This document shows positions 18,147 to 48,334 of a DNA stretch of 48,451 nucleotides, one piece after another. This stretch comes from Candidatus Endomicrobium neocapritermitis. Its GTDB lineage: Bacteria > Elusimicrobiota > Endomicrobiia > Endomicrobiales > Endomicrobiaceae. Under the pieces are notes generated by a model, which did no database searches, was not told the origin of the DNA, and saw only the letters and a list, made by a program, of their open reading frames with translations. The stretch is from assembly GCA_009778325.1 (NCBI GenBank), contig WRJZ01000034.1:1-48451 (forward strand), written 5' to 3'. The number at the start of each line of letters is the position of its first letter. Within the stretch, counting starts at the first letter, position 1. The position numbers were made by a program, and so were the translations under genes.

Positions 18147-18154
18147 AAAAATCC

Positions 18155-21572: not shown

Positions 21573-21587
21573 TTTCTACCTTTTTTT

Positions 21588-21667
21588 TGTCATACCCGAG
21601 TGTATCTATCGGGTATCCGTTTTTATTTTCAAATGCGGATTCCCGATAACAAAATTCGGGAATGACA
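21588..21667. repeat. Double-hairpin repeat with TGTCATNCCCGA ends
   Basis: Outer arms are TGTCATACCCGAG (21588-21600) and TTCGGGAATGACA (21655-21667). Inner arms are 21607-21619 and 21636-21648 (TATCGGGTATCCG type, one mismatch). TGTCATTCCCG-ended palindromes are widespread in Gram-negative genomes. It sits between the adhesin stop and chaperone start, so it would be transcribed within the operon. Confidence 0.8.
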
Positions 21668-21675
21668 AATATAAA

Positions 21676-22923: not shown

Positions 22924-22956
22924 AAAATATTCCTGGAATTTACAAGATTTACAAAG

Positions 22957-22991
22957 CTGTCGCGCGGAACCGCCAAAGGCCCGCGCGACAG
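22957..22991 (-). promoter_or_regulatory. Strong intercistronic hairpin between pilin and adhesin genes
   Basis: A perfect 11-base GC-rich stem (CTGTCGCGCGG, 22957-22967, with 22981-22991) encloses a 13-base loop, with no clear T-run on the minus strand. It lies 33 bases after the pilin stop. Such hairpins commonly stabilise major-pilin mRNA or cause partial termination so that pilin is made in excess. Confidence 0.65.
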
Positions 22992-23024
22992 ATAATATAT
23001 ACCATATCTTAACATCTTAGCTGC

Positions 23025-26487: not shown

Positions 26488-26539
26488 CTGAGCCACCTCT
26501 CTATATTAATTATGAATGATTGCTGTTGGAAAAGGCAAA

Positions 26540-26578
26540 ATAAAAAACGGAGTAAGCAGCTGCTGTACTTACCGTTTT
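26540..26578 (-). terminator. Hairpin with T-run at the 5' leader of ATPase 1 (terminator or attenuator)
   Basis: The minus strand reads AAAACGG-TAAGTA, a CAGCAGCTG loop, TTACT-CCG, then a T-run. The hairpin lies just downstream of the promoter at 26586-26615 and about 55 bases before the ATPase 1 start, so it is in that gene's leader. It could also end transcripts from ATPase 2, whose stop is about 145 bases upstream. Confidence 0.7.
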
Positions 26579-26585
26579 GGCCGTG

Positions 26586-26615
26586 ATTATAGCATATATC
26601 ATGAAAAACTGCGAA
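26586..26615 (-). promoter_or_regulatory. Extended -10 promoter for ATPase 1
   Basis: On the minus strand TTCGCA (26610-26615), an 18-base spacer ending TGC, and TATAAT (26586-26591). The TGN directly before TATAAT makes an extended -10. Predicted transcription begins about 7 bases further, at the hairpin. Confidence 0.65.
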
Positions 26616-26722
26616 TATAATAGCACAATTTCATATTTACACCGCGAATATGGAGGATAATAGATAAAATGTAAAAGGTAAAACCTGTTTCCTTGCCTGT
26701 AGTTAAGCCGTTGCCGTACCTA

Positions 26723-29380: not shown

Positions 29381-29475
29381 TGGCGCCGCCTTTAAAAACA
29401 TTTTAATTTAAAACAATAATCAGCTTACTTTTAGCAAAAATAGAAAGATAAGTACAATTTAAAATTCACAAAAAA

Positions 29476-29539: not shown

Positions 29540-29556
29540 TCTTGAGCTAGGGTGTG
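29540..29556 (+). repeat. T1-like element end upstream of the GGDEF/EAL gene
   Basis: GTCTTGAGCTAGGGTGTG resembles the left boundary of the 275-bp element at 7423 (AGTTTAGCTAGGGTGTG) and the block before the Crp gene at 31849. Only the end is present; no second arm is seen nearby. It lies in the 5' leader just before the ribosome site. Confidence 0.5.
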
Positions 29557-29580
29557 TTAATACACTATAAAAGGAGTTGC

Positions 29581-31883: not shown

Positions 31884-32549
31884 ATGAATATGAAAGAACA
31901 CATAGAAACAATAGCAAAGTGCCGCATTTTTGAAGGGATCTCTAAGTCAGAGATGGAGTCTCTGCTGCCTTACCTTAAACCTGATATTCGGAGATATAAA
32001 AAGGGCGAATATATAATAATGGCGGGTGACAAAGTTACGGATATATTCATCCTTTTGCGAGGCTGCGTGCAAATAATAAAAGAAGATATTTTAGGAGAAC
32101 GTACATTAATAGCGCAGTATCTGACCGGAGATTCTTTTTGCGAACCTTCCGTTAATTTGCCAAAATCCTCCGTCAACATCTGCGCCAGCGTTAATAGTGT
32201 CGTAATGGCTGTCCCTTTTGAAAATATTATAAATATGCATCCGTTTCTAATGCGCTTCCATTCAAAAATACTCAGAAACATAATTTCAATACTTTCATAT
32301 ATAGTCTTTAATGAAGTCGCGAAGCTTGACCATGTAAGCAAGCATAATATCAGAAAAAAGATATTTTCTTATCTTCTGGATGTAAAAAATAAAGCCGGCA
32401 ACAATGAATTTTTTATACCTTTCAGTAAAACGGATTTGTCGGATTACCTTTTTATAAACAGAAGCGCGATGACAAGAGAACTTTCCGCCATGAGAAAAGA
32501 TAAACTTATAAATTTTAAAGGAAGAAAGTTTACAATTAATATAGACTGA
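31884..32549 (+). CDS. Crp/Fnr family transcriptional regulator (paralogue B)
   Basis: 221 residues: an N-terminal cNMP-binding-like beta-roll (RRYKKGEYIIMAGDKVTDIF, about 33-52), a dimerisation helix, and a winged helix with the recognition segment FINRSAMTRELSAM (about 190-203). It has no Fnr-type Cys cluster. It resembles paralogue A (9421-10083) along the whole length, most strongly in the recognition helix. There is no clear ribosome site before ATG 31884; a second ATG two codons on is possible, and a TATAAT overlaps the start, so the message may be nearly leaderless. It sits directly upstream of the autotransporter cassette in the same direction and is its most likely regulator. Confidence 0.87.
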   Translation: MNMKEHIETIAKCRIFEGISKSEMESLLPYLKPDIRRYKKGEYIIMAGDKVTDIFILLRGCVQIIKEDILGERTLIAQYLTGDSFCEPSVNLPKSSVNICASVNSVVMAVPFENIINMHPFLMRFHSKILRNIISILSYIVFNEVAKLDHVSKHNIRKKIFSYLLDVKNKAGNNEFFIPFSKTDLSDYLFINRSAMTRELSAMRKDKLINFKGRKFTINID

Positions 32550-32602
32550 TAATATTACGTACAACGCATTTGCCGGAAAACGGTTGCCGTATTTCTTGTT
32601 TT

Positions 32603-32617
32603 GGTGCATACGCATCA
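32603..32617. promoter_or_regulatory. Operator candidate upstream of autotransporter 1
   Basis: GGTGCATACGCATCA is a near-palindrome that differs at one base from the site before autotransporter 2 (41187-41201) and aligns with the palindrome before Crp/Fnr paralogue A (10095-10108). A weaker related block, GGTGCATTCTCATGA, lies at 32659-32673. Confidence 0.55.
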
Positions 32618-32694: not shown

Positions 32695-35600
32695 ATGAAA
32701 AAAACAAAGCTGGCAAGGTTGGCGACGGTTTTTTTTACCGCCGTGTGTATGGTTTTAAACACATTTTCCGCTTATGCGGTTAATGTGGTAACATCAGCTG
32801 ATTTCGCGTCTAACTGGAACAGCGGTATATCTCCGATAATAGTGATAGGCGCGCAGCTTGACGCGGCCGGCAATTACGGAATATCCATGGCAAACTCCTT
32901 AAACGCGTTCGGCGGAGCGGACATGTCGCTTGACAGCTACAGCGGAACGCCCGACGGCACTGCTCTGTTAATGAATCAATATACCCTGGCTTTCTCACCC
33001 GGCTGGAATAACGACATGAGCGCGAGCATATCTAACTTAAGCATTTACGCCGCGACAAACGGTGCGGTCTCGTTTTTGGGAAACGGCGTCGGAGCCCACA
33101 TTTTTACAATTGACGGAACTTACTTCTACGGCAATATCACCGCCGGCTCTACAGGCGGAGCCGTTAATATTCAGTCCCAAATGCAAAGTGCTTCCACAAA
33201 CTCTTATACGCTCACCGATAATGATTTTATAAGCAATCAAGCGATGAACGGCGGCGGCGCGGTTTATATGGCTTCTAATAATTCTTATTATTCGGGCGGC
33301 AGCCCAAACGTTTTTTCCGTCATAGACGACACAGGGTCAAACAGCCATTACATATCGCTGAATCAGGCAGGCGGCGGAGTCACGGATAGCGGTAAAGGCA
33401 ACAGCGGTCAAAATTCCGGTAATGACGCGAGCAAAAAGATGACTATTGCCAACGGCGGCGGCATATATTTCATGGCTAATAATGCCGACGGCGGCAATGT
33501 AATAAATGAATTCACCGCGCAAGGCTATACATATTATCAGAACTACGCCACAGGCATGGGCGGCGCGATTTATAACGGCGTCCTTAACGGCAATAATCCG
33601 GCAGTAAACAATTTTAATATAACAAGCGGTACATTTGCTCAAAATCAGGCGGGCAGCGGCGGAGGCGGAGCGATAGCTAATGAAATAAACGGCGGCAACA
33701 CTACGGTAAATTTTAATATAAACGGAAGTTTTTATTCCAATTTAACATCAGGCAACGGCGGAGCGATAGCTAATCTTGTGGGCGGCCAGTATTCCCCTTA
33801 CGGCGGCACAATCACTTTTAATATAGAAGGGCCGTTTGACAGCAATAAAGCGGCAAACGGCGGAGCGATATACAATAATATACAAGCCGGACAGGCAAAC
33901 GTGGTAATAAATATCAGCAGCAGCATTACAAACAATTACGCAAGCGGCAACGGCGGAGCGATTTATAATACTGCGGGCAACAACAATCCGGGCACGGCGG
34001 CGGTTAATATAGCGGACGGCACAAATTTTTACGGCAACGGCGCCAATTACGGAGGCGCGATTTATAATGCCGGCAACGGCGTGATAAATTTTAACACCGT
34101 TAACAGTTCATCCGGCGGTTTCGGCATAAGTTTTCAAAACAACTACGCCGGCGCTTCCACTCAGGGGCCGGATATTTACCAAAGCTCTCCTACGGCCGTT
34201 ATAAACATAGCCGGCGACGGACAGGTTAATATTTTCGGCGGCTTCGGCGGCACGGGTACAATTAACCAGGCGGCCGGCACCACTCTGTATTTGGACGGCG
34301 CAAGCGAAAGCTTTGGTTACACAGGCGTATTTAACCAGGCGTTCGGCGCAACGCTGGACTCCAGCGGGCAGATGTTTGGCGGGGCAAATAATTTCGGCGG
34401 CACTGCCAATATAACAAGTATCGCGGTTAATTTTTATTTTAACGCGAATATGCTTGACAACTCCGTAATGAACTATACGGCTAACTCCGTGGGGCGCACA
34501 TCCGTAGGCGCGGCGACCGGCGCAGGTACGCCCGGTATAAGTTTTGCCGGCACCGGAGCGACTATAAACTTTGGCACCAATCAGCTGCAGGGTTTGTATT
34601 TGCTGCAAAACGACATAAGCAACGGGCAGGCAAATACTATTAACTTCGGAAACAGCGATGTTACCTTCGGTTCCACGGATTATACCGGCGGCACCACTTA
34701 CAATTTTTTTAATAATTCCGTGTTAGACCTTGCTAATTCTGCGCCCAATGTTAATGAATACAACCAATATACTTTCGGCAGCCTGAACGCTCCCGACGGC
34801 ACAACGCTGCTCAGCTTTAAAATAGGCAATGACCTGACTTCTACGCAGACCGATACCATTAATGTTCTGACCGGAAGCGGCGCCGTAGGCTTAGGCAAAA
34901 TATATGTTAACGACTCAAACGGCGTTATAACCGGCCAATACCGCATTATTTACGGCAATGCGGTAGATTGGACGGCAAACGGCCTTACGCAATACGTGGC
35001 TACAAGCACAGGCACTTATACTTTAACGACAATAAGCGACCAGTACATAAATTTCAGCAGCATAGGCGTCGGCATTTCGACCGGCACGACGTCAACGGTT
35101 GATCCCGGCGGCGGCACAACCACGACGACGGACAACCCCAGCGGCGGCACAACCACGACAACAACCGACCCTAACGGCGGCGCGACCACTACGACTGATG
35201 ACGGCAGCGGCAATTCTACCACTACAACGACAAATCCCGATGGCGGTTCCAGCACTACCAATTCGGGTTCCGGCGGAACTACCAGCAGCAGCACTACGGA
35301 TCCGAACGGCGGCACAACAACAACTATAACAAATCCTGGCGGCGACACAACCACGACAACGACCAATCCCGACGGCAGCACATCGGTTACCAATACGGAC
35401 CCCGGCAGCAATACGACAGGCAGCAGCACGACAGATCCGAACGGCGGTACAACAACGACCATAACAAATCCCGGCGGCGACACAACTACCACAACGACCA
35501 GCCCCGACGGCGGCACGTCAGTGACCAACTCGGGTTCCGGCGGCAATACAACCAGCACTACAACAACAAATCCTGACGGGAGTACGACAACTACAATTAT

Positions 35601-38600
35601 TGATTCGGACGGCAGTACGGCTTCCAATACTACCAATGCCAACGGCTCTACCAATACTACATATAACGATAATAACGGCAGCGGTACAATAACAGTTACG
35701 ACTAATCCGGACGGCAGCACAACAATTTCGTCAACGGACCCGAATGTTCCGTCGGGTACTATATCGCCGGGCGGAAGCGGCAGTTATACCACTGAAGACG
35801 GAGGCACTATAACCATAGCTCCGGGTGCCGGCGGCAGCATCACGACGACGGTTACGACGCCGGATGGCGGTTCAAGCACCGTTACTTCAAATCCGGGCAC
35901 GGGCGGTTCAAGCAGTTCAACCACGGATTCTTCAGGCAATACCATAGATACTACAACCGGTTCCGACGGAAGTTCAACAACAACAGGCACGCCGGCGGGC
36001 GGAGGTTCTACCACCACAACTACACCTGCCGGAGGCACGGGCGGTTCAAGCAGTTCAACTACGGATTCTTCAGGCAATACCATAGATACTACAACCGGTT
36101 CCGACGGAAGCTCAACGACAACAGGCACGCCGGCGGGCGGAGGTTCTACCACCACAACAACCACTCCGGGCGGCACGGGCGGTTCAAGCAGTTCAAGTAC
36201 TGATTCCGGCGGCAATACCATTGATACGTCAACCGGGTCCGGCAGCTCTACGACAACCGTCACTACGCCCGGAGGCGGTTCAACCACCACCACTACGCCG
36301 GGAGACGGCAGCGGCAATACGACAACTACCGTAACTACGCCTGACGGCAGCGGCGGCAGTTCAACCACGACAACAACTACTAATCCTGACGGCAGCGGTT
36401 CAAGCGTGACAAATCCCAACGGCAGCACGGCCGGCACAACGGTGAACAACGGCGGCGCGACGGGTACGGTTACGACTCCGCCTCCAACCACCCCTACGGT
36501 TCTTGTATTGAATGACGTCAATGACATTGACAGCGCCGCGATTTCCGTCGGTATATCTTCCGCTACGCCGCGCGCTTACCAAATCGGCGCGGGCGAAATT
36601 TATTATAACGATATGGACCTCAGCGTTATGGCGGAAGGCGTATTCTCCGTCTATGGCGCGGATAAAACAACGTCAACATTAAGCGGGCTGAACCTGTCCG
36701 ACGTGGCAGCCGGCTCAAGCACCGTAAGGCATCAATCTCTTTTTAATATAGCCAATAGCAGTCCGACATTCTTTACATTGGAAGATTTAACCATACAGGA
36801 CGCGTACTCAGCGGTCGGCGGCGCAGTTATTAATATGAGCAACCCGAACTCAACGGTCTCGGTTACAAAACTGCTTGTTCAGAATAACCACTCCGACGGT
36901 GACGGCGGCGTGTTTAACGTAACGGCAGGCGTTATGACAGGCTGGGGCATTGATTATGACCATAACACCTCCTCAGGCAACGGCGGAGCGGTTTATAATA
37001 CAAGTTCCATAACTAAACACGGCGGCTCGTTTACAAATAACTACGCTGCAGGCAACGGCGGCGCGGTTTATAATGACGCGCAAGACCCAAATAATATGCT
37101 GACAATATGCGCCGGCGCCGGAGGAGATTATGTTACTCCTTTGGGCACTTTCAGCGGTATGCTGATTACCGGTAATAAAGCAGGCGGTCTGGGCGGCGCT
37201 ATTTACAATGCCGCTGGAAGCTATATGTCTATGGCTTCGATTACGGGCGCGGATGTGGTACTTGACGAAAATTACTCTAACTGGGACAGCACCGCCGGCA
37301 CAGGCACGCGCAACGACATTTATAATGAAGGCATACTTGATTTCACCAGCACGGGCGGCAGTTGGTATGTCGGCGGCGGTTTCGCGGGCAGCGGCACGAT
37401 AAACAAGTACAGCCCTGTTGTGCTGCACTTTGCCGCTACCAGCGACAATTCAAACTTTACCGGCGATTTTAACCAATACAACGGTATTGTAAATGTTAAC
37501 GCGCCGTTTTTCGGCGGAAAAAGCACAATAGCAAGCGGCATATTGAACTGGAACGCAGGCGCCGTAAGACCTGCTGCGGCATTACTTCAGGTAATAAGCG
37601 GCACGATCAATATATACGGCAGTCTAATCCTAAACCATCAGTATGATATTATAGGTCCGGCTTCAACTCTTAATTTGTTCCCGGGCGGCTATTACGAGAT
37701 AGCCGGGGGGACGGTTTTTCTTAATACTACGGATATGCTTGTAACCCCGCAGGGAACTTACGGCACTGCAAGCATGAGCGACGGTTATCTTGTTATTGGC
37801 GGCGCCGATATGCTTGTTTATTCCGGCGCGTTTGAGCAGACCGGCGGCGTAATCCGCGTGGAAAACCAGGCTACGGCCCATCTTAACTATAATCTTCCCG
37901 GAAGCGGCATTTTCGGCGGAGATATTGTCCTGACAAACGCCACGCTGTACGCGCAAAATTATATTATTGATTACGGCCCGGGCATTCACAGCGACGGCAG
38001 CGGGACAGTTCAGACGAGCGGTTCGCTAGCGATGGGCGACAATGCGATTTTTAATTCCATAGACGGCGCTATACAAACGCATAACTTCGCTGGATGTTTT
38101 GGTTTGTTCTCCGTAATGTCCAGTTCCGTGCAGACTACTGCCAACTTTATGGTGGATGTGGACGCGCGGGCATGCAAATCCGATACTCTTGTATTCGCGC
38201 AAGGATCGGCCGTTATCGGCAGTACTGCCCCTTTCATATATGGCAACGGCGTTAATGATCCGTCCCACCCAGAATTTACCGTGAACGACGTTTACGCGAC
38301 CGGCGGTTTTATTATGCTTGAGGATATAAACCTTCTAAATACGCCAAGGACCGCGGTTGTCCCTTTCACTATTATAGACCCGCCAGTGTCGCCTTTTAGC
38401 GACCCGCGGCTTATCTTTGTAGCTACGGACAAAAAATATGACACGGCGGTAGGCACGTACGGGCTTTATTCTACTGGGATTGGCAATTATGAGCTGCGTT
38501 TGTTGGGAATTAATCCCGCGGCTCTTCGCGGACAAGCGGCGTTGTTTGCAATGCTTGAAGGACAGTTTACCGCAAACAGCGTTTTGTTTGACCACGTATT

Positions 38601-39450
38601 TTTTGACAGCAATCAAATGCTTGTCGATGAATATAAGTACGAATATAAATTTTTGCCGAGACAATTTTTCAAGGAAAACAGAGAAAAATCTTATTGGGTA
38701 AAAACCTATTACGAATACGAGAGATTGCCTGTTGCGGATAATACGGATTTGAAAAACAATCTTTACGGCGCGATTTTCGGGCTTGATTTTGCGGCAAAAG
38801 ACATCGGCGATAATTCATATTTTATGCCGAGTTTGTTTGTCGGTTATACCGGCCAGTCGCAAAGCCTCGCTTCGGCGACAATGAATCAAAACGCCGTAAG
38901 AGCCGGCTTTATGGCTTCGGTAATGGTTAATGATGTTTATACGGCGTCGGCGCTGGTTTACGGCGGCGGATACCGCAATAATATGGAAGTCAGCGGAAGC
39001 GGAGAAGACCTTTACGGCTTTTTTACGGGAGCTGCCGTTAAAAACGCTTACAATATGTATATGAATAATTTTGTTTTACAGCCTTTTGCCATGGCGTCTT
39101 ATAATTTTTACGGCGCGCAAAGCTGGACATCTTCTTACGGCAACATAGAAATGGAAACGGATTGTCTGAACGGCTTTAATCTTTCGCCGGGCGCCAACCT
39201 CATTTACGCGCTGGACACATGGAACTTTTTAGCCGGCGGAGCATATGTTTATAATCTGGGAGACAGAGCCACCGGAAGGATCGGGAGTATAGAACTTCCG
39301 GCTTTTAACACGGGAATAGGCTACTTTGAATGGACTGCAGGCGCGTCAAAAATATTTTCGAAAAAACTGAGTGTTTGGCTTAAAGGCGTTTATAAAACCA
39401 ACCGCGATTCGGATATAGGCGTAAAAGCCGGCGCAGGATGGAGGTTCTAA
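32695..39450 (+). CDS. Giant Pmp-like autotransporter adhesin 1 with Thr/Ser-rich stalk
   Basis: 2251 residues. The signal peptide is 1-28 (ending SAYA). The first passenger block (about 30-790) contains many paired FxxN and GGAI(Y/A)N units, as in Chlamydia polymorphic membrane proteins (right-handed beta-helix). Residues about 797-1262 are a low-complexity Thr/Ser/Gly/Asp/Pro/Asn segment with two sets of tandem repeats (45- and 46-residue units). A second GGA(V/I)YN block follows (about 1265-1930). The C-terminal autotransporter barrel (about 1985-2251) ends in GAGWRF, with the terminal aromatic typical of outer-membrane proteins. It probably acts as a surface adhesin; the Thr/Ser stalk may be glycosylated. 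GGGGAGAGG lies 7 bases before the ATG. Its stop is one base from the start of the barrel-OmpA gene. Confidence 0.9.
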   Translation: MKKTKLARLATVFFTAVCMVLNTFSAYAVNVVTSADFASNWNSGISPIIVIGAQLDAAGNYGISMANSLNAFGGADMSLDSYSGTPDGTALLMNQYTLAFSPGWNNDMSASISNLSIYAATNGAVSFLGNGVGAHIFTIDGTYFYGNITAGSTGGAVNIQSQMQSASTNSYTLTDNDFISNQAMNGGGAVYMASNNSYYSGGSPNVFSVIDDTGSNSHYISLNQAGGGVTDSGKGNSGQNSGNDASKKMTIANGGGIYFMANNADGGNVINEFTAQGYTYYQNYATGMGGAIYNGVLNGNNPAVNNFNITSGTFAQNQAGSGGGGAIANEINGGNTTVNFNINGSFYSNLTSGNGGAIANLVGGQYSPYGGTITFNIEGPFDSNKAANGGAIYNNIQAGQANVVINISSSITNNYASGNGGAIYNTAGNNNPGTAAVNIADGTNFYGNGANYGGAIYNAGNGVINFNTVNSSSGGFGISFQNNYAGASTQGPDIYQSSPTAVINIAGDGQVNIFGGFGGTGTINQAAGTTLYLDGASESFGYTGVFNQAFGATLDSSGQMFGGANNFGGTANITSIAVNFYFNANMLDNSVMNYTANSVGRTSVGAATGAGTPGISFAGTGATINFGTNQLQGLYLLQNDISNGQANTINFGNSDVTFGSTDYTGGTTYNFFNNSVLDLANSAPNVNEYNQYTFGSLNAPDGTTLLSFKIGNDLTSTQTDTINVLTGSGAVGLGKIYVNDSNGVITGQYRIIYGNAVDWTANGLTQYVATSTGTYTLTTISDQYINFSSIGVGISTGTTSTVDPGGGTTTTTDNPSGGTTTTTTDPNGGATTTTDDGSGNSTTTTTNPDGGSSTTNSGSGGTTSSSTTDPNGGTTTTITNPGGDTTTTTTNPDGSTSVTNTDPGSNTTGSSTTDPNGGTTTTITNPGGDTTTTTTSPDGGTSVTNSGSGGNTTSTTTTNPDGSTTTTIIDSDGSTASNTTNANGSTNTTYNDNNGSGTITVTTNPDGSTTISSTDPNVPSGTISPGGSGSYTTEDGGTITIAPGAGGSITTTVTTPDGGSSTVTSNPGTGGSSSSTTDSSGNTIDTTTGSDGSSTTTGTPAGGGSTTTTTPAGGTGGSSSSTTDSSGNTIDTTTGSDGSSTTTGTPAGGGSTTTTTTPGGTGGSSSSSTDSGGNTIDTSTGSGSSTTTVTTPGGGSTTTTTPGDGSGNTTTTVTTPDGSGGSSTTTTTTNPDGSGSSVTNPNGSTAGTTVNNGGATGTVTTPPPTTPTVLVLNDVNDIDSAAISVGISSATPRAYQIGAGEIYYNDMDLSVMAEGVFSVYGADKTTSTLSGLNLSDVAAGSSTVRHQSLFNIANSSPTFFTLEDLTIQDAYSAVGGAVINMSNPNSTVSVTKLLVQNNHSDGDGGVFNVTAGVMTGWGIDYDHNTSSGNGGAVYNTSSITKHGGSFTNNYAAGNGGAVYNDAQDPNNMLTICAGAGGDYVTPLGTFSGMLITGNKAGGLGGAIYNAAGSYMSMASITGADVVLDENYSNWDSTAGTGTRNDIYNEGILDFTSTGGSWYVGGGFAGSGTINKYSPVVLHFAATSDNSNFTGDFNQYNGIVNVNAPFFGGKSTIASGILNWNAGAVRPAAALLQVISGTINIYGSLILNHQYDIIGPASTLNLFPGGYYEIAGGTVFLNTTDMLVTPQGTYGTASMSDGYLVIGGADMLVYSGAFEQTGGVIRVENQATAHLNYNLPGSGIFGGDIVLTNATLYAQNYIIDYGPGIHSDGSGTVQTSGSLAMGDNAIFNSIDGAIQTHNFAGCFGLFSVMSSSVQTTANFMVDVDARACKSDTLVFAQGSAVIGSTAPFIYGNGVNDPSHPEFTVNDVYATGGFIMLEDINLLNTPRTAVVPFTIIDPPVSPFSDPRLIFVATDKKYDTAVGTYGLYSTGIGNYELRLLGINPAALRGQAALFAMLEGQFTANSVLFDHVFFDSNQMLVDEYKYEYKFLPRQFFKENREKSYWVKTYYEYERLPVADNTDLKNNLYGAIFGLDFAAKDIGDNSYFMPSLFVGYTGQSQSLASATMNQNAVRAGFMASVMVNDVYTASALVYGGGYRNNMEVSGSGEDLYGFFTGAAVKNAYNMYMNNFVLQPFAMASYNFYGAQSWTSSYGNIEMETDCLNGFNLSPGANLIYALDTWNFLAGGAYVYNLGDRATGRIGSIELPAFNTGIGYFEWTAGASKIFSKKLSVWLKGVYKTNRDSDIGVKAGAGWRF
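35086..36480 (+). repeat. Low-complexity Thr/Ser/Gly coding region with tandem repeats
   Basis: Two tandem sets are visible: 135-base units starting at 35296 and 35431, and 138-base units starting at 35896, 36034 and 36172 (the third diverges). Codons for Thr are varied (ACA, ACC, ACG, ACT), so this is old or selected protein repetition, not simple microsatellite slippage. The paralogue at 41308-46653 lacks the whole segment. Confidence 0.85.
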
Positions 39451-39451
39451 T

Positions 39452-41023
39452 ATGAGAAAATTACAAATTACGAATTACGAATTACGAATCAACGGCAAAA
39501 GCATTGAAAAGAGCGCCGTAAACGCGGCGAAGAAAACCAAAGCAGTAAGCATTGCTGTGCTTATTGCAATAATGTTTGTTTTTTGTGTCTCTCAAGCGCA
39601 GGCTGTTAATAATCCGTTTTCTGTTTCTGCGTTAAATTCCGCGGTGCTTAAAGCGGGTACAAATTCGCTTAACAAAAGGCTGGGCGATTTGAGAAGAACG
39701 GAAGAAGAAATAAAAAGCGCTGTTTGGATGAGGGGCTATTATAACGAACTCTCAAAATACGGCGGGATTGATTTGGACGCGAATATTTCAGGCGTTGAAG
39801 CGGGCGTTGATTTTCGCGTCTTAAAAGACAGCCCCAGCAGAATTTACGCGGGCGTTTTGGCAGGATATATAGGAGCGGACAATTTCGGCCGGACAAATAA
39901 CATTAAATCCGGCGCGCCCTTAATCGGCTTATACGAAACCTGGCTTAACCCCGACGGCTGGTTTATTGACGCCGCTGTCAGGTATTTTTTCTATAGCGCG
40001 CAGGACGTTTTGTCCGGGCAAAAAACGGACTTTGGAATGTTTTCCGTAAGCGTTGAAGGGGGAAGAGAATTCAAATTTCCGGCAAACGCTTCAAACTTTT
40101 TTATGGTTGAGCCGAAGATTAAAGGAACATTCGGACATATCAGGGGAGCAACGCTGAATTCTATTGAATACGACGCGGCGCATACTTTAATTGTCCGTCC
40201 GGCGGTTTTTGCCGGATATTCGGCGGCGCTAACCAACGGCGCTATAGTGGAGCCGTATATTGAAGGCGGATATAATCAGGATTTATCGTCCGATATGAAA
40301 ATAAGCGGATACGGTTCCCGCGGAATTTCCGGCGGAAGTTTTGACATAGGCGGCGGATTCAACGCGATAATAACAAAAATTCTTTCGATTTACACATACG
40401 CCGGATATGAAAAAGGCGATAAAATTGAAAACTTGTCCGTCAACGCGGGATTTAGAATAGCATTGACAGGAATAAAACGTAAAGAGAATTACGACAAGAA
40501 AAAAGAAGCGGAAGCCGAGGCTGCGGCTGAAGAGAAAGCGGATTCGGTATTCCCTGACGATTCAAAAAAGAATTCAAGTTCATCTTTAAGTTCCGGCGGA
40601 ACTATAAAGATTGTCAAGAATACGGGCCCTGCCGGATTATCCGATAGCAAGGCTAAAGGAAAAACTAATGTTGACGACGCGGTTGCAAACGCGGTTTCAG
40701 AGCATCCCGTTCATTTCGCTTTTGACAAATATACCATAACTCCGGAAGAAGACGACTATCTTAAAGGCGTCGCGGAATATATAAAAAAGTCGGGAGAAAG
40801 CTTTGAAATAGACGGATATGCCGACAGAATAGGACAGCCCAATTATAACCGCACTTTGTCCGAACGCCGCGCGAAAGCGGTTTACGACAGGCTTATAGAA
40901 TTAGGAGTGCCTGCAGAAAAACTTACGTATAAAGGTTTTGGCTCCACACATCAAATGAACCCGGATAAAACCAAAGAAGCAGATGAGGAAAACAGAAGAG
41001 TTGAAATTAATCCCGTAGAATAA
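39452..41023 (+). CDS. Beta-barrel/OmpA fusion outer-membrane protein 1
   Basis: 523 residues. An unusually long signal peptide (1-51, cleavage after AQA) has residues about 4-14 (LQITNYELRIN) encoded by half of an R1 repeat arm. The mature protein starts VNNPFSVSALNSAV, then an autotransporter-type barrel without passenger (about 80-335, starting SAVWMRGYYNELSKYGG), an Ala/Glu/Lys/Ser linker (about 345-415), and an OmpA C-terminal domain (about 420-523) with YADRIGQPNYNRTLSERRAK for peptidoglycan binding. GGAGG (39440-39444) overlaps the end of the autotransporter gene, seven bases from the ATG, so translation is coupled. I infer a cell-wall-anchored companion of the autotransporter. The paralogue is at 46655. 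Confidence 0.87.
   Translation: MRKLQITNYELRINGKSIEKSAVNAAKKTKAVSIAVLIAIMFVFCVSQAQAVNNPFSVSALNSAVLKAGTNSLNKRLGDLRRTEEEIKSAVWMRGYYNELSKYGGIDLDANISGVEAGVDFRVLKDSPSRIYAGVLAGYIGADNFGRTNNIKSGAPLIGLYETWLNPDGWFIDAAVRYFFYSAQDVLSGQKTDFGMFSVSVEGGREFKFPANASNFFMVEPKIKGTFGHIRGATLNSIEYDAAHTLIVRPAVFAGYSAALTNGAIVEPYIEGGYNQDLSSDMKISGYGSRGISGGSFDIGGGFNAIITKILSIYTYAGYEKGDKIENLSVNAGFRIALTGIKRKENYDKKKEAEAEAAAEEKADSVFPDDSKKNSSSSLSSGGTIKIVKNTGPAGLSDSKAKGKTNVDDAVANAVSEHPVHFAFDKYTITPEEDDYLKGVAEYIKKSGESFEIDGYADRIGQPNYNRTLSERRAKAVYDRLIELGVPAEKLTYKGFGSTHQMNPDKTKEADEENRRVEINPVE
39461..39494. repeat. R1 repeat half-arm inside the barrel-OmpA 1 signal peptide
   Basis: Tandem AATTACGA units ending ATCAA match the arm of the complete R1 element (10140-10176) with a six-base deletion. 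It is read in frame as part of the n-region. Confidence 0.8.
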
Positions 41024-41055
41024 AACAAACCGATTATTTTTGCGCTTTATAACCG

Positions 41056-41094
41056 CCAAAAGCCTCCCGTTTAACTCGGGAGGCTTTTGGTTTA
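41056..41094 (+). terminator. Rho-independent terminator after cassette 1
   Basis: A perfect 14-base stem (CCAAAAGCCTCCCG, 41056-41069, with 41077-41090) has a seven-base loop and is followed by TTTA. It ends the first autotransporter/barrel-OmpA transcript. Confidence 0.88.
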
Positions 41095-41148
41095 TACATA
41101 GAATCCCAATACTTTTTAATATCGAATCTATTGAACTTGTAAAATATT

Positions 41149-41176
41149 TGTAAAATATTTATTATTTTGATACTAT
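41149..41176 (+). promoter_or_regulatory. Promoter candidate for autotransporter 2
   Basis: TTGTAA (41149-41154), a 16-base spacer and TACTAT (41171-41176). The -35 is within a direct repeat of TTGTAAAATAT (41138 and 41149). The operator-like palindrome at 41187-41201 lies just downstream, near the expected start of transcription. Confidence 0.45.
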
Positions 41177-41186
41177 CAAAAAAGAT

Positions 41187-41201
41187 GGTGCATATGCATC
41201 A
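41187..41201. promoter_or_regulatory. Operator candidate upstream of autotransporter 2
   Basis: GGTGCATATGCATCA, whose core TGCATATGCA is a perfect palindrome, differs at one base from the site at 32603-32617. It lies 106 bases before the start codon. Confidence 0.55.
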
Positions 41202-41307
41202 AAAAATATGCTCATATGAGAGGGTGTTGAATAGGTTAGGGAATACTTAAAAATTAAATGGTATTAAAAAACAGGCCGGTATAGAAGTCTAAAAAGAGAG
41301 GAATGGG

Positions 41308-44300
41308 ATGAAAAAATTTCTTGCTTGCACAGTTGTGTTTTATTTTTTTACAAGCAGTTTGTATGCCGCAGGCGCGGGAAGTTCGCAGGCTTTTTACCAG
41401 CATTGGATTAACGAGAATATCCCGCTGATAGATTTGCAGCAGGATATAAATTTAACGAATACTCTTGGCGTTCCCCGTTCCGTTGATCTTACTATTGACG
41501 GCTTGGGCCACACTCTTACCCTTAATAATAATACGCTTATCTTTTTGCCTAACTGGAATGACGGCCTTAACGCTACGATACAAAACATTACTATTAACGG
41601 CGCAAGCGCAGGCGCGGTTGAGTTTAACGGCGACGGGCAAAATAATCATGCTTATAACGTAACAAATTCAACTTTTACCGGCAACTCGTTTTCTTCAAAC
41701 GGCGGCGCGATTTACAGCCACGCCCAGGCTCAGGTAGCCGGAAGCGCAAGAACATATACATTTACGGATAACGTTTTTACGTATAACTCAGCCCAAAACG
41801 GCGGTGCGTTGTATAATGCTTCAAATAATTCGCAGCTGCCGGTATATTTTTTAATAACCGGCGGATCTTTTATTTCAAATTCCGCGGCAAGCGGTTCCGG
41901 CGGAGCTATTTACAATGTTTCTAATTATGGGAGCGGCGCGAGTTTGGATAACAGTTTTGTAATAGGTTCGTCTTTAAGCCCCATATCTTTTATAAACAAC
42001 TCCGCGGCAAACGGTTACGGCGGCGCAATCTACAATTTTTCAAACAATCCGGCAAGCTCGGGAATAAGCCAATTTTCAATAAACGGAACTTTCTCGGGAA
42101 ACAGCGCGCAAAACGGCGGAGCTCTTGTCAACCAGATTGAGGGCGGCAACGGCATAAGCACATTTACCGTCACGGGCTCTTTCACCGGCAACAAGGCCTT
42201 GCAAAACGGCGGAGCTGCGGCAAACTATGTCGGGCTTTCGGGAAACAGCCCTTACGGCGGCGCTGCTGTTTTTGATTTTAGCGGAGTTGCGTCTTTTACA
42301 AATAACACGGCGGCAAGCGGTTCCGGCGGCGCGATTTACAACCTTGTAAATCGCGGGCAGTCGGTATCTTATACAAATGTCGGCGGAACATTTTCCGGAA
42401 ACAGCGCGAGACAAAACGGCGGAGCGATTTATAACAGCGCAAACGCCGCAAACACTCCTCTTAACATCGCCGACGGATCGGTTTTTTCAAACAACAAAGC
42501 TATCAGAGGTTATGCAATTTATAACGATAATTTCGGCCATATTACAATCAACGCCGACTCGGCCGGAATAAAATTTACAGGCAACACAAACTTCAATCCT
42601 TTTGATTCCGCCACCAACGATATTTACCAGGCGTCTGCCAACGGTATAATTGATATTATAACAACCGGCAACGGCGGGCAGGTTTATCTTGACGGCGGCT
42701 TTGCGGGTTTGGGCACTATAAATATGCACGGAGCCAAAGTGGCAGCCGGGGACCTTTATCTTGCCGCAAGTTCCGACAATTTAGGTTTTACGGGCGTTTT
42801 TAATCAGACGTTCGGCATAACAAACGTTTACGGCACAATGTTCGGCGGAACAAACAATATACAAAATACCGGCAGCATTACGGTTACAGACAGCGTGCTA
42901 AACGTTTATTCAAATCAAAATTCCGTATATTATAATGCAAACCTTTATTCAAACGTGGAGCTTAACCACGCTTCTCTGACGTCGGACATTGTGACAATTA
43001 CCCAGGCTGCCGGCGATTCCGCGCCGGGAATTCAGTTTAATGGAAGCGGCGCCGTAGCGCTGTTTTCCAACGGAAATACAAACGGCGTCATGTCTAAATT
43101 TTTGGTACAAGACCGCATCGGCAACGGACAGAGCAATCAAATAGGTTTTTTCAACAGCGTTGTTTCTTTTGGCACGACAGATTATGTTGGCACAGCCGGA
43201 TCGGCTGACTACGGCGGGCTTACCAGATATATTTTCGACGGGTCAGTAATAGACTTGGCAAATTCTTCATTATCGACTCAACAGTACAAATTCGGCATGA
43301 TAGACGTGATAAACTCGCTTACCAATAACTCATACATCAATATTAAAGCCATAGGCACCGGCGCGGCAGGCCCTGACAATTACACGGCGGATTCGATGTC
43401 TTTTGATTCGTCCATCCCGGGCAGGACTTTGGAGCTTGGAAAAATATATATAAGTAATGACGAAACATACGCGCTTAGCGGAACGCAGCAGGTTTTGTTA
43501 AATAACAGCGGGACTGATGACCTGCAATTATATTTGGGGAATGACACATATGTTGTCGCTAACAGCTCAACTATCTATACTCTTAGTCTGGCTACTACAA
43601 CGACTGCAAACGACAGTATTGAGTTCAATTCCCAATCCAATGTAAATCCCGGTTTCCCGGACATAGGTATACCTCTTATTGACTTAAACGACGTGACAGC
43701 GCTGACGTCGGTCGCGGTTTCGACTTTTAATATTGGCGCTAACAGAGGCTGGCAGATATATTCCGGAAGAACTTATTACGACTTTGACCCGGACCCCAAC
43801 GGCTCAATCGTTACAACCGGACTTAACGACATGGCAAGCGGGACGCTCAACGTTTACGGTTCCGTTCAAAACGACGTAACTTCCGTGTTAAGCGGAAAAT
43901 TCGTTGATATTGCTAGCGGAACATACAGCGGTCCGCGCTCTTTATTTAATATGGTAAATGCCAGCACGACGTTTAATTTGAGCGATTTAACAATCCAAGA
44001 CACTTATTTAGGCACTGACGGCGGTGCGGTTCTGAGGCTAAACGACGCGGCTTCTACGGCAAATTTGAGCTGGCTTTTGGTGCAGTACAGCACGTCTGTG
44101 GGCAACGGCGGAGCCGTTAATCTTACGACCGGCACTTTGAATATGAATTTTGTGAATTTGTCTAACAATAAATCGATGGCGGGCAACTCGCAGAACGGCG
44201 ACGGCGGAGCGATTAACGTAAACGGCGGCGTGCTGAACTTATCGGGATATATTAACAGCGTGCCTGACAGCATAGTCGACGGCATTTCCGGAAACAGCGC

Positions 44301-46653
44301 TGACGGCGACGGCGGAGCGATAAGCATAAGCGGCGGAGACGTTCTGATTAAAAACACTTATATAGGATACAATACGGCGCAAAACGGCGGCGCTATAAGC
44401 CATACCGGCGGAACTCTGACGCTGTCTTCAGACTGGCTTTTCGGCACCATCTTCGGGACCAACGAAGCAGTGCGCAACGGCGGAGCGATATATAACAATA
44501 CGGCGGATTTTACAATAAACGGCAACGTAGGCTTTCTTCTTAATACGGCTGCCGAGGGCGGCGCTATTTACAACGATGCTTCCGGCGTGCTTACCTTTGA
44601 CTCTACATCGGGGAATATCGTATTTACCCAAAATACCGTTACGGGCGGCGCAAGCAACGATATTTATAACGACGGCATAATCAATTTTACCGGTAACGGA
44701 AACATGGTGCGCATAGACGGCGGCATAAGCGGTTCTGTCGGCGGAGCCCAAATCAGCCAAAGCGGCGGCGGCGCGGTTATCCTTAATTACGGCAGCGACA
44801 GTTCCGGTTATTTGGGAACTTTTACCCAAAGTTCGGGCACAGTGACAAACGGCGGCGTTTTCTTTGGCGGCGCAAGCAATATTTCAGGCGGAAATCTTTA
44901 CTGGATGAATAGCAGTTCCGGCAGCGCGTCCAAAACGAATACTTCGTCTGTGAATATAAACTCTTCGGCGTCTCTTTTCGTACAGGGAGGGGCTGACTTT
45001 ACGCTTAACAATGCCGCTGACATAATCGGCCAAAGCGCAATGATATATCTTGACGCGGATTCCACAATAAGCGTTGAGGCAAGCGGCGCGCAATTATATC
45101 TTTCAACGCAGGATACCTGGCTGGGACACATCAAAATGAGCAACGGAACCACTACGATGGACGGTCTTAAAAATCTTTATAACAGCGATTATTCGCAGGA
45201 CGGAGGAACGCTGGTTCTCATAAATTCCGTTCTTACAATGGGCGGAAAGTCCGTAGTTACGGACGGCGAAATTTCGCTTGATAACTCGGTTATAGTTACC
45301 AACGGCGTAGGAATCAGCCTTGCGGGAATAAACGGCAGCGGCAATTTATCCATGAGCAATAATTCTTTGGTGGATGGAAAAAACGGAGTCATACTCATTG
45401 ATTATTTTGCCGGCAGTCTGTATGTAAATAACAGTACGGCAAATTTTACGGTTGACCTTGACCCGAAACAGAAAGTCAGCGACCAATTTGTTTTCGGCGG
45501 AACAATAGATCCGGGCGTTATAAATATATCCGATTTTGGTCTGTTGAGCGCGCCTGCCGATAAAGAAATACCTTTCCAGATTTTTGTAGCGAGTTCAATT
45601 ACCGGCATAACTTTTGCGACCGACAAAACGCAGGTGCAAACAGCTATCGGGATATATGATTTTGCGCCCATAGCCGGGCAAGACGGCTGGTATATGTTAA
45701 GCCTTGCTTCTTTAAACCCCGGCACCGGCGGGGGGCAGGCGTCGGTTTTGGCTATGCTTGGAGCGCGGCTTCTTGCAAATAATGTTTTGTTTGACCACGT
45801 ATTTTTTGACAGCAACCAAATGCTTGTAAGAGAGGATAAAAGCGATTACCGCTTTTTGCCTTCGCAGTTTCTCAAAGAAAACAGGGGGAAAAATTACTGG
45901 GTAAAAAGTTATTATGAAAGCGAAAAGTTAACTACTACTTCTAATATGGAGCTCAAAAATGACATTTACGGCGCTATTTTAGGACTTGATTTTAGAGCAA
46001 GCGATATAGGCGAAAATTCATATTTTTTACCTACTCTGTTTGCGGAATATACGGGCGCGGCTCAGACGTTCGCCGGAGCAACTATGCGCCAAAACTCGGC
46101 TCAGGCGGGTTTTATGGCTTCGGCGATGGTTAATGACGTTTACACCGTATCGGCAATGGCTTACGGCGGCGGTTATAAAAATAATATAGAAATCGAAGGA
46201 ATGGGAGATGATGTTTATAACTGGTTTGTAGGCGCGGGCGTCAAAAACGCTTATAATATGTATTTCGATAATTTTATTTTGCAGCCTTTCGCGCAGATTT
46301 CTTATAATCTTTTCGGCAAACAAAAATGGGATTCTTCTTATGGCGATATCGGTATGGAAACAGAATACCTGAACGGCCTTAACGCTTCTCCCGGAGCCAA
46401 CCTTATTTACGGGTTAGAAACGTGGAACTTTTTGATTGGCGGCTCGTACGTATATAATCTAGGCAATAAAGTTGAGGGAAAAGCGGGAAATATCGATCTT
46501 CCGGAATTAAAAACCGAAATCGGTTATTTTGAATATACGGCAGGCGCGTCAAAAAGGTTTGCCGAAAGATTAAATGTCTGGGTTAAGGGCGTTTATAAAA
46601 CCAACAGAGACAGCGATATCGGCGTAAGAGCCGGCGCAGGATGGAGGTTATAA
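41308..46653 (+). CDS. Giant Pmp-like autotransporter adhesin 2
   Basis: 1781 residues, a paralogue of 32695-39450. The signal peptide is 1-20 (ending SLYA). The first passenger block has very regular FxxN...GGA(I/L)YN units (FTGNSFSSNGGAIYS, FISNSAASGSGGAIYN and so on). A short junction (about 780-800, NVNPGFPDIGIPLIDLND) sits where the paralogue has its 466-residue Thr/Ser stalk. A second GGAI block follows (about 930-1130), then the barrel (about 1515-1781) ending GAGWRL. The barrels of the two paralogues are very alike while the passengers differ widely. GAGAGGAA precedes the ATG. It is coupled to the second barrel-OmpA gene by the same overlapping GGAGG. Confidence 0.9.
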   Translation: MKKFLACTVVFYFFTSSLYAAGAGSSQAFYQHWINENIPLIDLQQDINLTNTLGVPRSVDLTIDGLGHTLTLNNNTLIFLPNWNDGLNATIQNITINGASAGAVEFNGDGQNNHAYNVTNSTFTGNSFSSNGGAIYSHAQAQVAGSARTYTFTDNVFTYNSAQNGGALYNASNNSQLPVYFLITGGSFISNSAASGSGGAIYNVSNYGSGASLDNSFVIGSSLSPISFINNSAANGYGGAIYNFSNNPASSGISQFSINGTFSGNSAQNGGALVNQIEGGNGISTFTVTGSFTGNKALQNGGAAANYVGLSGNSPYGGAAVFDFSGVASFTNNTAASGSGGAIYNLVNRGQSVSYTNVGGTFSGNSARQNGGAIYNSANAANTPLNIADGSVFSNNKAIRGYAIYNDNFGHITINADSAGIKFTGNTNFNPFDSATNDIYQASANGIIDIITTGNGGQVYLDGGFAGLGTINMHGAKVAAGDLYLAASSDNLGFTGVFNQTFGITNVYGTMFGGTNNIQNTGSITVTDSVLNVYSNQNSVYYNANLYSNVELNHASLTSDIVTITQAAGDSAPGIQFNGSGAVALFSNGNTNGVMSKFLVQDRIGNGQSNQIGFFNSVVSFGTTDYVGTAGSADYGGLTRYIFDGSVIDLANSSLSTQQYKFGMIDVINSLTNNSYINIKAIGTGAAGPDNYTADSMSFDSSIPGRTLELGKIYISNDETYALSGTQQVLLNNSGTDDLQLYLGNDTYVVANSSTIYTLSLATTTTANDSIEFNSQSNVNPGFPDIGIPLIDLNDVTALTSVAVSTFNIGANRGWQIYSGRTYYDFDPDPNGSIVTTGLNDMASGTLNVYGSVQNDVTSVLSGKFVDIASGTYSGPRSLFNMVNASTTFNLSDLTIQDTYLGTDGGAVLRLNDAASTANLSWLLVQYSTSVGNGGAVNLTTGTLNMNFVNLSNNKSMAGNSQNGDGGAINVNGGVLNLSGYINSVPDSIVDGISGNSADGDGGAISISGGDVLIKNTYIGYNTAQNGGAISHTGGTLTLSSDWLFGTIFGTNEAVRNGGAIYNNTADFTINGNVGFLLNTAAEGGAIYNDASGVLTFDSTSGNIVFTQNTVTGGASNDIYNDGIINFTGNGNMVRIDGGISGSVGGAQISQSGGGAVILNYGSDSSGYLGTFTQSSGTVTNGGVFFGGASNISGGNLYWMNSSSGSASKTNTSSVNINSSASLFVQGGADFTLNNAADIIGQSAMIYLDADSTISVEASGAQLYLSTQDTWLGHIKMSNGTTTMDGLKNLYNSDYSQDGGTLVLINSVLTMGGKSVVTDGEISLDNSVIVTNGVGISLAGINGSGNLSMSNNSLVDGKNGVILIDYFAGSLYVNNSTANFTVDLDPKQKVSDQFVFGGTIDPGVINISDFGLLSAPADKEIPFQIFVASSITGITFATDKTQVQTAIGIYDFAPIAGQDGWYMLSLASLNPGTGGGQASVLAMLGARLLANNVLFDHVFFDSNQMLVREDKSDYRFLPSQFLKENRGKNYWVKSYYESEKLTTTSNMELKNDIYGAILGLDFRASDIGENSYFLPTLFAEYTGAAQTFAGATMRQNSAQAGFMASAMVNDVYTVSAMAYGGGYKNNIEIEGMGDDVYNWFVGAGVKNAYNMYFDNFILQPFAQISYNLFGKQKWDSSYGDIGMETEYLNGLNASPGANLIYGLETWNFLIGGSYVYNLGNKVEGKAGNIDLPELKTEIGYFEYTAGASKRFAERLNVWVKGVYKTNRDSDIGVRAGAGWRL

Positions 46654-46654
46654 T

Positions 46655-48268
46655 ATGAGAAAATTACAAATTACGAATTACGAATTACGAATCAACGGCG
46701 AAAGTATTAAAAGCAGCGCCGTAAACGCGGCGAAGAAATCCAGAGTTGTAAGCATTGTTGTGCTTATTGCAATAATGTTTGTTTTTTCTGTCTCTCAAGC
46801 TCAGGCTGTTAATAATCCGTTTTCTGTTTCGGCGTTAAATTCCGCGGTGCTTAAAGCGGGTACAAATTCGCTTAACAAAAGGCTGGGCGATTTGAGAAGA
46901 ACGGAAGAAGAAGTGACTAGCGCAGTCTGGATGAGGGGCTATTATAACGAACTCTCAAAATACGGCGGGATTGATTTGGACGCGAACATTTCAGGAGTGG
47001 AAGCCGGCGTTGATTTTCGCATTTTAAAAGACAGCCCAAACAGGACGTATATCGGCGTTTTGGCAGGCTATGTAGGAGCGGAAAATTTCGATCAGGCAAA
47101 TAACGTTAAATCCGGCGCGCCCTTAATCGGCTTATACAAAACCTGGCTTAACCCCGACGGCTGGTTTATAGACGCTGTTGCCAGATATTTTTTCTATAGC
47201 GCGCAGGATGTTGTGTCCGGTCAAGAAACGGACTTCGGAATGTTTGCCGTAAACGTTGAAGGGGGGAAAGAATTCAAATTTCCGACAAACGCTTCAAACT
47301 TTTTTATGGTTGAGCCGAAGATTAAAGGAACATTCGGTCATATTGGCGGAGCAACGCTGAATTCCGTTAAGTACGACTCGGCGAATACTTTTATTGTCCG
47401 CCCCGCGGTTTTTGCCGGATATTCGGCAACGCTTAACAACGGCGCTATAGTGGAGCCGTATATTGAAGGCGGATATAATCAGGATTTATCGTCCGATATG
47501 AAAATAAGCGGATATGATTCCCGCGGAATTTCCGGCGGAAGCTTTGACATAGGCGGCGGATTCAACGCTATTGTCACAAAAATCCTTTCGATTTACACAT
47601 ATGCCGGATATGAAAAAGGCGACAAAATTGAAAATTTGTCCGTCAACGCTGGATTTAGAATAGCATTGACAAGAGCAAAACGTACAGAGAACTACGACAA
47701 GAAAAAAGAAGAGAAAGCGGAAGTTAAAGCCGGGGAGAAATCAGACACGGAAAGAAATAATGTTACCGATGTAAATGAAGTAAATAGCGCTGAAGCGTCG
47801 AATGAGTCATCGGCAAGCCAGACAGAGAGCGGGAATAAAGGGGCAGAAGCAGCGGAAATTTTGCAGGACAATAGAGAGACAGTTTCTAAAAATGAGCAGG
47901 ATTCTGGTATAGACTCAGGCGAAGAAATGTGGTCAATCCACATGCGCAATGTGCACTTTGCTTTTGACAAATACAATATCACTCCTGAATATGCGGAATT
48001 TCTTAAGAAAGAAGTAGTAAATAAAATAAAGAATTCAAAAAGGCAAATTGAAATAGACGGACATACGGACAGAATCGGCACTGAAGAATATAATCAGGGT
48101 TTGTCTGAACGCCGGGCAAAAGCGGTTTACGATAAACTTATAGAATTAGGCGTGCCGGCAAATAAACTTACATATAAAGGTTTCAGTTTCAACCGTATGA
48201 TAAACCTGGAAGAAACCCCGGAAGCCGATGCTGAAAACAGAAGGGTAGAAATCCATACCGTAGAATAA
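46655..48268 (+). CDS. Beta-barrel/OmpA fusion outer-membrane protein 2
   Basis: 537 residues, a paralogue of 39452-41023 with nearly identical sequence through the signal peptide (including the repeat-derived LQITNYELRIN) and barrel (about 1-340). The linker (about 345-425) is unrelated in sequence and richer in Glu/Ser/Asn. The OmpA domain (about 430-537) keeps HTDRIGTEEYNQGLSERRAK for peptidoglycan binding. GGAGG (46643-46647) is seven bases from the ATG and inside the preceding gene's last codons. Strong conservation of barrel and signal, against a free linker, points to recent duplication or gene conversion of the 5' two thirds. Confidence 0.87.
   Translation: MRKLQITNYELRINGESIKSSAVNAAKKSRVVSIVVLIAIMFVFSVSQAQAVNNPFSVSALNSAVLKAGTNSLNKRLGDLRRTEEEVTSAVWMRGYYNELSKYGGIDLDANISGVEAGVDFRILKDSPNRTYIGVLAGYVGAENFDQANNVKSGAPLIGLYKTWLNPDGWFIDAVARYFFYSAQDVVSGQETDFGMFAVNVEGGKEFKFPTNASNFFMVEPKIKGTFGHIGGATLNSVKYDSANTFIVRPAVFAGYSATLNNGAIVEPYIEGGYNQDLSSDMKISGYDSRGISGGSFDIGGGFNAIVTKILSIYTYAGYEKGDKIENLSVNAGFRIALTRAKRTENYDKKKEEKAEVKAGEKSDTERNNVTDVNEVNSAEASNESSASQTESGNKGAEAAEILQDNRETVSKNEQDSGIDSGEEMWSIHMRNVHFAFDKYNITPEYAEFLKKEVVNKIKNSKRQIEIDGHTDRIGTEEYNQGLSERRAKAVYDKLIELGVPANKLTYKGFSFNRMINLEETPEADAENRRVEIHTVE
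46664..46697. repeat. R1 repeat half-arm inside the barrel-OmpA 2 signal peptide
   Basis: The same in-frame ATTACGA-unit stretch as at 39461-39494, present because the cassette was duplicated after the repeat had been captured. Confidence 0.8.
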
Positions 48269-48301: not shown

Positions 48302-48334
48302 CAAGAGTCTCCCGGGTTAAACGGGAGACTCTTG
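48302..48334. terminator. Hairpin terminator after cassette 2 (possibly bidirectional)
   Basis: A perfect 13-base stem (CAAGAGTCTCCCG, 48302-48314, with 48322-48334) has a seven-base loop. It is similar in layout to the terminator after cassette 1 but lacks a T-run on the plus strand; the minus strand has TTGTTATTT after it. It lies between convergent genes. Confidence 0.7.

Follow-up and report, generated by a model that had tools for sequence, protein, structure and literature searches.

Tandem gene pairs of a PMP-type autotransporter and a passenger-less barrel–OmpA protein in an Endomicrobiaceae bacterium: a possible wall-tethered anchor partner for a large adhesin

The two cassettes

The window analysed here, namely the entire contig G000:C34 (48,451 bases), belongs to the 2.38 Mb genome of an Endomicrobiaceae bacterium of the phylum Elusimicrobiota. 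The Endomicrobiaceae comprise gut commensals and protist endosymbionts (PMC11257099). Within positions 32695-48268 lie two tandem cassettes, with all four genes on the + strand. Each has a gene for a PMP-type autotransporter, here called P, followed by a gene for a passenger-less autotransporter barrel joined to an OmpA domain, here called Q. The initial annotation of the locus had described such an arrangement, and it is borne out by the gene layout and by the Pfam, NCBIfam and PDB matches given below. Relatives mentioned repeatedly are G023 (Ca. Endomicrobium labiotermitis) and G031 (Ca. E. embiratermitis), both of the family of the host, and G014, probably the cultured E. proavitum. The features of the cassettes are the following.

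32695-39450, +, P1, PMP-type autotransporter of 2251 amino acids, with orthologues in G023 and G014
39440-39444, +, GGAGG ribosome site for Q1, within the Trp-Arg codons ending P1, 7 nt 5′ of the Q1 ATG
39452-41023, +, Q1, 523 amino acids: signal peptide, passenger-less autotransporter barrel, linker and OmpA domain
39452-40501, +, gene-conversion tract, Q1 copy (signal peptide and barrel), from synonymous divergence (dS)
39459-39489, +, (AATTACG)4.4 heptanucleotide repeat in the n-region of the Q1 signal peptide (ITNYELRI), a copy of a dispersed repeat
40715-40996, +, OmpA domain of Q1, with Asp458 and Arg473
41055-41091, +, terminator-like hairpin 3′ of Q1 (-28.6 kcal/mol, z -7.1)
41308-46653, +, P2, PMP-type autotransporter of 1781 amino acids, orthologue of a G031 protein
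46643-46647, +, GGAGG ribosome site for Q2, within the last codons of P2
46655-48268, +, Q2, autotransporter barrel and OmpA domain, 537 amino acids
about 46655-47704, +, gene-conversion tract, Q2 copy
46662-46692, +, (AATTACG)4.4 repeat in the Q2 n-region
47957-48241, +, OmpA domain of Q2
48302-48334, +, terminator-like hairpin 3′ of Q2 (-25.8 kcal/mol, z -7.2)

Since a strong hairpin follows each Q, P1–Q1 and P2–Q2 look like two separate two-gene units.

Domain make-up of Q and P

Q begins with a signal peptide, followed by the linker helix and barrel of an autotransporter, a low-complexity linker of ~75 residues and an OmpA domain; Q1 and Q2 are 77% identical. The barrel is an autotransporter translocator domain over its whole length. 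Q1 matches PF03797 with an E value of 8e-17 (62 bits, cut-off 26), both Q1 and Q2 pass TIGR01414, the autotransporter barrel model (107 bits, cut-off 16), and the Q barrel matches that of BrkA (PDB 3qq2) end to end (E 2e-19). The linker helix is of the kind that fills autotransporter barrels, and it is retained in Q; there is no passenger N-terminal to the barrel, and Q is not a complete autotransporter. The barrel is under purifying selection, with a ratio of nonsynonymous to synonymous divergence (dN/dS) of ~0.13 against its G023 counterpart.

The C-terminal domain of Q1 matches PF00691 (E 3e-21). In OmpA of A. baumannii, one Asp and one Arg bind diaminopimelate (PMC12108004). By our reading of the alignment, the likely equivalents of this pair are Asp458 and Arg473, which are present in all six full-length Q proteins described below. 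With the PF00691 match and the Asp/Arg pair, the domain belongs with the OmpA-like peptidoglycan-binding domains, and Q is predicted to bind peptidoglycan. Porins of the OmpA/OprF type likewise have an N-terminal barrel and a C-terminal wall-binding OmpA domain, but theirs is the small OmpA barrel, and Q has an autotransporter barrel instead (TIGR01414, BrkA).

P1 consists of a signal peptide, a beta-helix passenger, a Thr/Gly/Ser-rich linker of ~467 amino acids and a C-terminal barrel ending in GAGWRF. The passengers of the P proteins score above the threshold of the Chlam_PMP model and contain 12 and 15 GGA[ILV] motifs, against ~0.5 in shuffles. The P proteins have a signal peptide, a PMP passenger and an end in GAGWRF/L, and may be autotransporters of type Va. 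Across their C-terminal halves, P1 and P2 are 40% identical. The P barrel gave no direct match in Pfam or in the PDB, the latter searched with profiles of 5 and of 14 sequences; a homologue in G028 passes PF03797 (28.9 bits, cut-off 26), and the profiles of the P and Q barrels can be aligned over ~240 columns (hhalign, probability 79%, E 1.6e-5). Two-partner secretion (type Vb) was considered and rejected: P carries its own barrel, and Q shows an autotransporter barrel and an OmpA domain, with no POTRA among the Pfam and NCBIfam matches listed.

The P–Q junction

A gap of a single base between the stop codon of P and the start of Q, with a ribosome site overlapping the end of P, had been noted in the initial annotation, and both features hold at the two junctions of the window. 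The six junctions now available read TGGAGGTTCTAATATG, TGGAGGTTATAATATG, TGGAGGTTCTAATATG, TGGAGGTTCTAACAATG, TGGAGGTTCTAAAATG and TGGAGGTTTTAAATG, with stop-to-start distances of 1, 1, 1, 2, 1 and 0 nt, respectively. In every one of them, the GGAGG ribosome site of Q lies within the last Trp-Arg codons of P. The Arg codon at the end of P is AGG in all six, where AGG makes up 13% of the Arg codons in P genes; the chance of this is ~5e-6 on the assumption, only partly valid, that the copies are independent. In relatives with P but no Q, the matching end of P has AGA, AAG, CGG or a codon for another residue, with one exception. Judged from the sequences, the overlapping site supports coupled translation of P and Q. 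It does not show the fixed production ratio that had been read from it.

Conservation of the pair

Profiles of Q and of the P barrel were each searched against 341 genomes of Elusimicrobiota, including 77 from the family of the host. Full-length Q was found six times, in five genomes and two families: twice in the host and once each in G014, G023 and G031 (Endomicrobiaceae) and in G189, from a second Elusimicrobiota family. A contig scan of the genomes gave only two close relatives of Q. Looking for such pairs in other genomes had been suggested as a check, and the outcome is uniform, as a P-type gene lies immediately 5′ of Q on the same strand in all six cases, with a gap of 0-2 nt (in G189 the P gene is truncated by the contig end). 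The neighbours of the pair, on the other hand, vary among the four Endomicrobiaceae genomes. Because the genes that follow Q differ (a lipoprotein and antiporter subunits in one genome, a different lipoprotein in another, a helicase in another), the link between P and Q is not due to general gene order. These comparisons support a pairing that is both conserved and old.

P-type genes also occur without Q. This is the case in the close relatives G012 and G180 and in the distant G028, G068 and G084. In G180 (L149:8500-8520), the P stop abuts an ATG with a 20-codon frame, followed by unrelated DNA; this frame could be the scar of a lost Q, a suggestive arrangement only. In G082 (L108) and G065 (L110), of genus g8, the P-type genes are broken and Q is absent. 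Genus g8, with its strongly reduced genomes, is probably the endosymbiont genus Endomicrobiellum.

Three ways of joining an autotransporter to an OmpA domain

In Elusimicrobiota, autotransporter and OmpA domain are joined in three layouts: in a single chain, through an adjacent lipoprotein gene, or as P followed by Q. Five genomes contain 89 autotransporter barrels, of which 42 lie in one open reading frame with an OmpA domain; five of these are Q and 37 are others, a few of which end at contig ends. The single-chain form, with passenger, barrel and OmpA domain in that order, is exemplified by L045, L050 and L052. Like Q, these Endomicrobiaceae proteins have a barrel followed by an OmpA domain; they keep the passenger in the same chain, whereas in the P–Q pair it sits on a separate barrel. 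Their barrels are the closest relatives of Q outside the pair, and they are the probable source of Q. One single-chain protein of the AIDA type, L043:8220-13850 in G014, has an ART-PolyVal ADP-ribosyltransferase-like domain (3e-11); since this domain lies between barrel and OmpA domain, it is probably periplasmic.

The second layout occurs in genus g10, where an OmpA-domain gene with a lipoprotein signal follows an autotransporter after ~25-110 nt (L112:7723-11405, L114:8912-11925 and L115:1043-5083). At L113:3413-5144 of the same genus, a 339-aa passenger-less barrel protein precedes an OmpA-domain lipoprotein gene, with a gap in that same range. The layout of L112-L115 resembles the AtaA–TpgA system discussed below. 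A different neighbourhood is seen in G028 (L109:1-12027), where the gene 45 bp after that of a P-type autotransporter encodes another PMP autotransporter, complete with passenger.

Complete passenger-less barrel–OmpA proteins also occur on their own, at L166:3856-5643 (G016, 595 aa) and L168:2806-4536 (G009, 576 aa). They are 42% identical to each other, have no autotransporter neighbour, and resemble Q solely in the OmpA domain. It follows that the barrel–OmpA layout as such needs no autotransporter neighbour, and that only the group of Q orthologues is tied to one. The initial annotation had held that a partnership would be refuted if barrel–OmpA homologues mostly lacked a neighbouring autotransporter and no interaction were predicted or measured. 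What is found is mixed: every Q orthologue adjoins an autotransporter, while most barrel–OmpA homologues in these genomes carry their own passenger and the solitary passenger-less ones belong to a different lineage.

History of the cassettes

In the tree of P barrels, P1 groups with G023 and G014 (98/97) and P2 with G031 (85/81). Since the two group with different genomes, the cassettes diverged before those genomes did, and a recent local event is ruled out as the origin of the tandem arrangement. The divergence between the cassettes is uneven. Their dS is 0.09 in the Q signal peptide and 0.24 in the Q barrel, as against 1.19 in the P barrel and 1.12 in the OmpA domain, and third-position identity rises sharply at the start of Q and drops at the end of the barrel. 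Such a pattern is characteristic of gene conversion, here between Q1 and Q2 and restricted to the 5′-terminal two thirds of Q.

A proposed role for Q

What, then, would Q do for P? We propose that each cassette makes P, a PMP-type autotransporter adhesin, together with Q, a companion outer-membrane protein, and that Q, translated from a ribosome site inside the last codons of P, would be made whenever P is made. The Q barrel would sit in the outer membrane, while on the periplasmic side the OmpA domain would bind peptidoglycan. Q would thereby tether the patch of membrane that holds P, most likely by touching the P barrel from the side, and this tether to the wall would brace the large adhesin against pull-out. 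Q would thus be a wall-tethered anchor partner of P, the two-chain counterpart of the single-chain passenger–barrel–OmpA autotransporters, a reading to which we give a probability of roughly 0.5. Because the link to an OmpA domain recurs and the Asp/Arg pair is conserved, wall anchoring of the adhesin is the simplest reading. It had been listed among the possible roles in the initial annotation, and it fits the conserved diaminopimelate residues and the relatives that have the same OmpA domain in cis. A further step, in which P and Q form a defined two-barrel complex with the passenger-less barrel as a dedicated wall-anchored subunit of the adhesin, is a more tentative idea, and we know of no other instance of a two-barrel autotransporter architecture.

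Several observations weigh against the proposed partnership. Since P is found without Q, Q is not required for P to exist, and the solitary proteins L166 and L168 show the same general layout away from any autotransporter. Gene conversion has made the barrels of Q1 and Q2 almost the same, whereas those of P1 and P2 are still 33% different, which suggests that the Q barrel has one and the same task in either cassette and is not fitted to a particular P. AlphaFold models gave a mean pLDDT (predicted local distance difference test) of 32 for Q, with four sequences, and of 29 for the P barrel, values too low for use.

In a rival account, Q is a general OmpA-like tether between membrane and wall that happens to be co-transcribed with P, for example to relieve the outer membrane of the strain from so large an adhesin, with no contact between the two. 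The existence of the solitary proteins keeps this a serious rival, and barrels homogenised between cassettes are what would be expected of a shared part; the genomes with P and no Q point the same way. On the other hand, all six Q orthologues stay right behind P while the neighbours change, and the ribosome site within P is kept; the solitary proteins are not Q orthologues and match Q in the OmpA domain only. We regard a general tether as possible, if somewhat doubtful.

It is also conceivable that Q derives from a second autotransporter by loss of the passenger and is now a remnant without any important role. Q does retain the linker helix and barrel without a passenger, beyond the pair it is most closely related to the barrels of single-chain proteins, and in G028 a full second autotransporter follows the P gene. 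As an account of the origin of Q this may be right. As an account of its function it is not, and it is on the whole very improbable, given the strong purifying selection on the barrel and the conservation of wall-binding residues and ribosome site across two families. Finally, Q might help P to assemble, in insertion or in the export of its passenger, or might be the surface receptor that a P passenger binds once released; barrel insertion and the receptor had been named in the initial annotation. Such roles would agree with co-translation and with a barrel of the translocator type. We consider them unlikely, as P has its own barrel and persists without Q in relatives, Q retains the helix that fills its barrel, and the OmpA domain would be left unexplained.

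Comparison with known systems

Large adhesins must resist pull-out from a loosely held outer membrane. Among the closest known systems is AtaA–TpgA, reportedly first described in a 2016 paper in Molecular Microbiology (101:394). In Acinetobacter sp. Tol 5, the trimeric autotransporter adhesin AtaA is anchored by TpgA, a separate periplasmic protein that binds peptidoglycan; simulations indicate that TpgA about doubles the force needed to pull the adhesin out of the membrane, and similar pairs are reported from several proteobacterial genera (PMC13082670). As in the P–Q pair, a surface autotransporter has a separate partner, which in that system binds peptidoglycan and strengthens membrane anchorage. 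AtaA is a type Vc trimeric adhesin, whereas P is PMP-type and type Va-like, and TpgA is a soluble periplasmic protein, whereas Q is an integral barrel. By analogy, Q may act on P as TpgA does on AtaA, but as a neighbour in the membrane. Membership of Q in the TpgA family itself (NCBIfam NF047726) was rejected, as Q1 scores 52.6 bits against a cut-off of 350 and matches model positions 146-250 of 268 only, in its OmpA part only.

In the inverse autotransporters intimin and YeeJ, the barrel of an adhesin is likewise tied to peptidoglycan, but the wall-binding domain is a LysM domain, N-terminal and in the same chain (PMC5595812). The chlamydial Pmp proteins, which form autotransporter Group 7 in PMC9289746, share with P the GGA[ILV]/FxxN beta-helix passenger and the C-terminal barrel. 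Unlike theirs, the P barrel goes unrecognised by Pfam or PDB profiles. No barrel–OmpA partner for chlamydial Pmp is mentioned in the searched passages of that review.

The initial annotation knew of no system in which an autotransporter has a dedicated, wall-anchored barrel as its partner. Read to mean that nothing of the kind has been described, this goes too far, since in AtaA–TpgA an autotransporter does have a dedicated wall-binding partner, though one that is not a barrel. A dedicated wall-binding partner and a wall-binding domain in cis are both already known, and the unusual point here, which is also the new aspect, lies in a partner that forms a barrel as well; a limited literature search found no barrel as the wall-anchored partner of an autotransporter. 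The three OmpA layouts in one phylum extend the idea behind AtaA–TpgA beyond the trimeric adhesins of proteobacteria. Moreover, the six natural pairs, the relatives with P only and the single-chain versions form a comparative set for relating wall anchoring to adhesin retention.

Other features of the window

Three further features lie 5′ of the P genes.

31884-32549, +, CRP/FNR-family gene, candidate regulator, directly 5′ of the cassettes
32602-32617, +, palindrome TGGTGCATACGCATCA, possible operator, 5′ of P1
41186-41201, +, palindrome TGGTGCATATGCATCA, possible operator, 5′ of P2

The 16-bp palindrome, TGGTGCATAYGCATCA, is confined to these two sites when the window is searched with up to 2 mismatches allowed (mean of 0.10 in shuffles, for a pattern itself drawn from the two sites), and a 2-mismatch copy lies 275 nt 5′ of P in G023 (L040:2554). 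A GGDEF-EAL gene (29554-31803) adjoins the CRP/FNR-family gene near P1. The palindromes may be taken as a candidate operator, and these two genes as candidate regulators.

The AATTACG repeat in the Q signal peptides was considered as a means of phase variation and rejected, as it is dispersed and is missing from the start of Q in three of the six. A 21-nt pattern of this repeat, which often forms inverted pairs, has 231 matches in the host genome, 46 in G023, 3 in G031 and none in G014 or G189; further sites in the window are at 117-144 and 10143-10358. The repeat could cause slippage, but being dispersed and absent from three Q starts, it is not part of the P–Q system.

On the - strand, positions 17559-23651 encode, one after another, two DUF4402 proteins, an fn3-like (chaperone-like) protein, an 878-aa protein that has a carboxypeptidase-regulatory-like domain and an OmpA protein whose signal is lipoprotein-like. 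This looks like an alternate chaperone-usher cluster with an OmpA protein of its own. Next to it, at 23821-29401 on the same strand, are two adjoining P-type cation ATPases of 891 and 892 aa.

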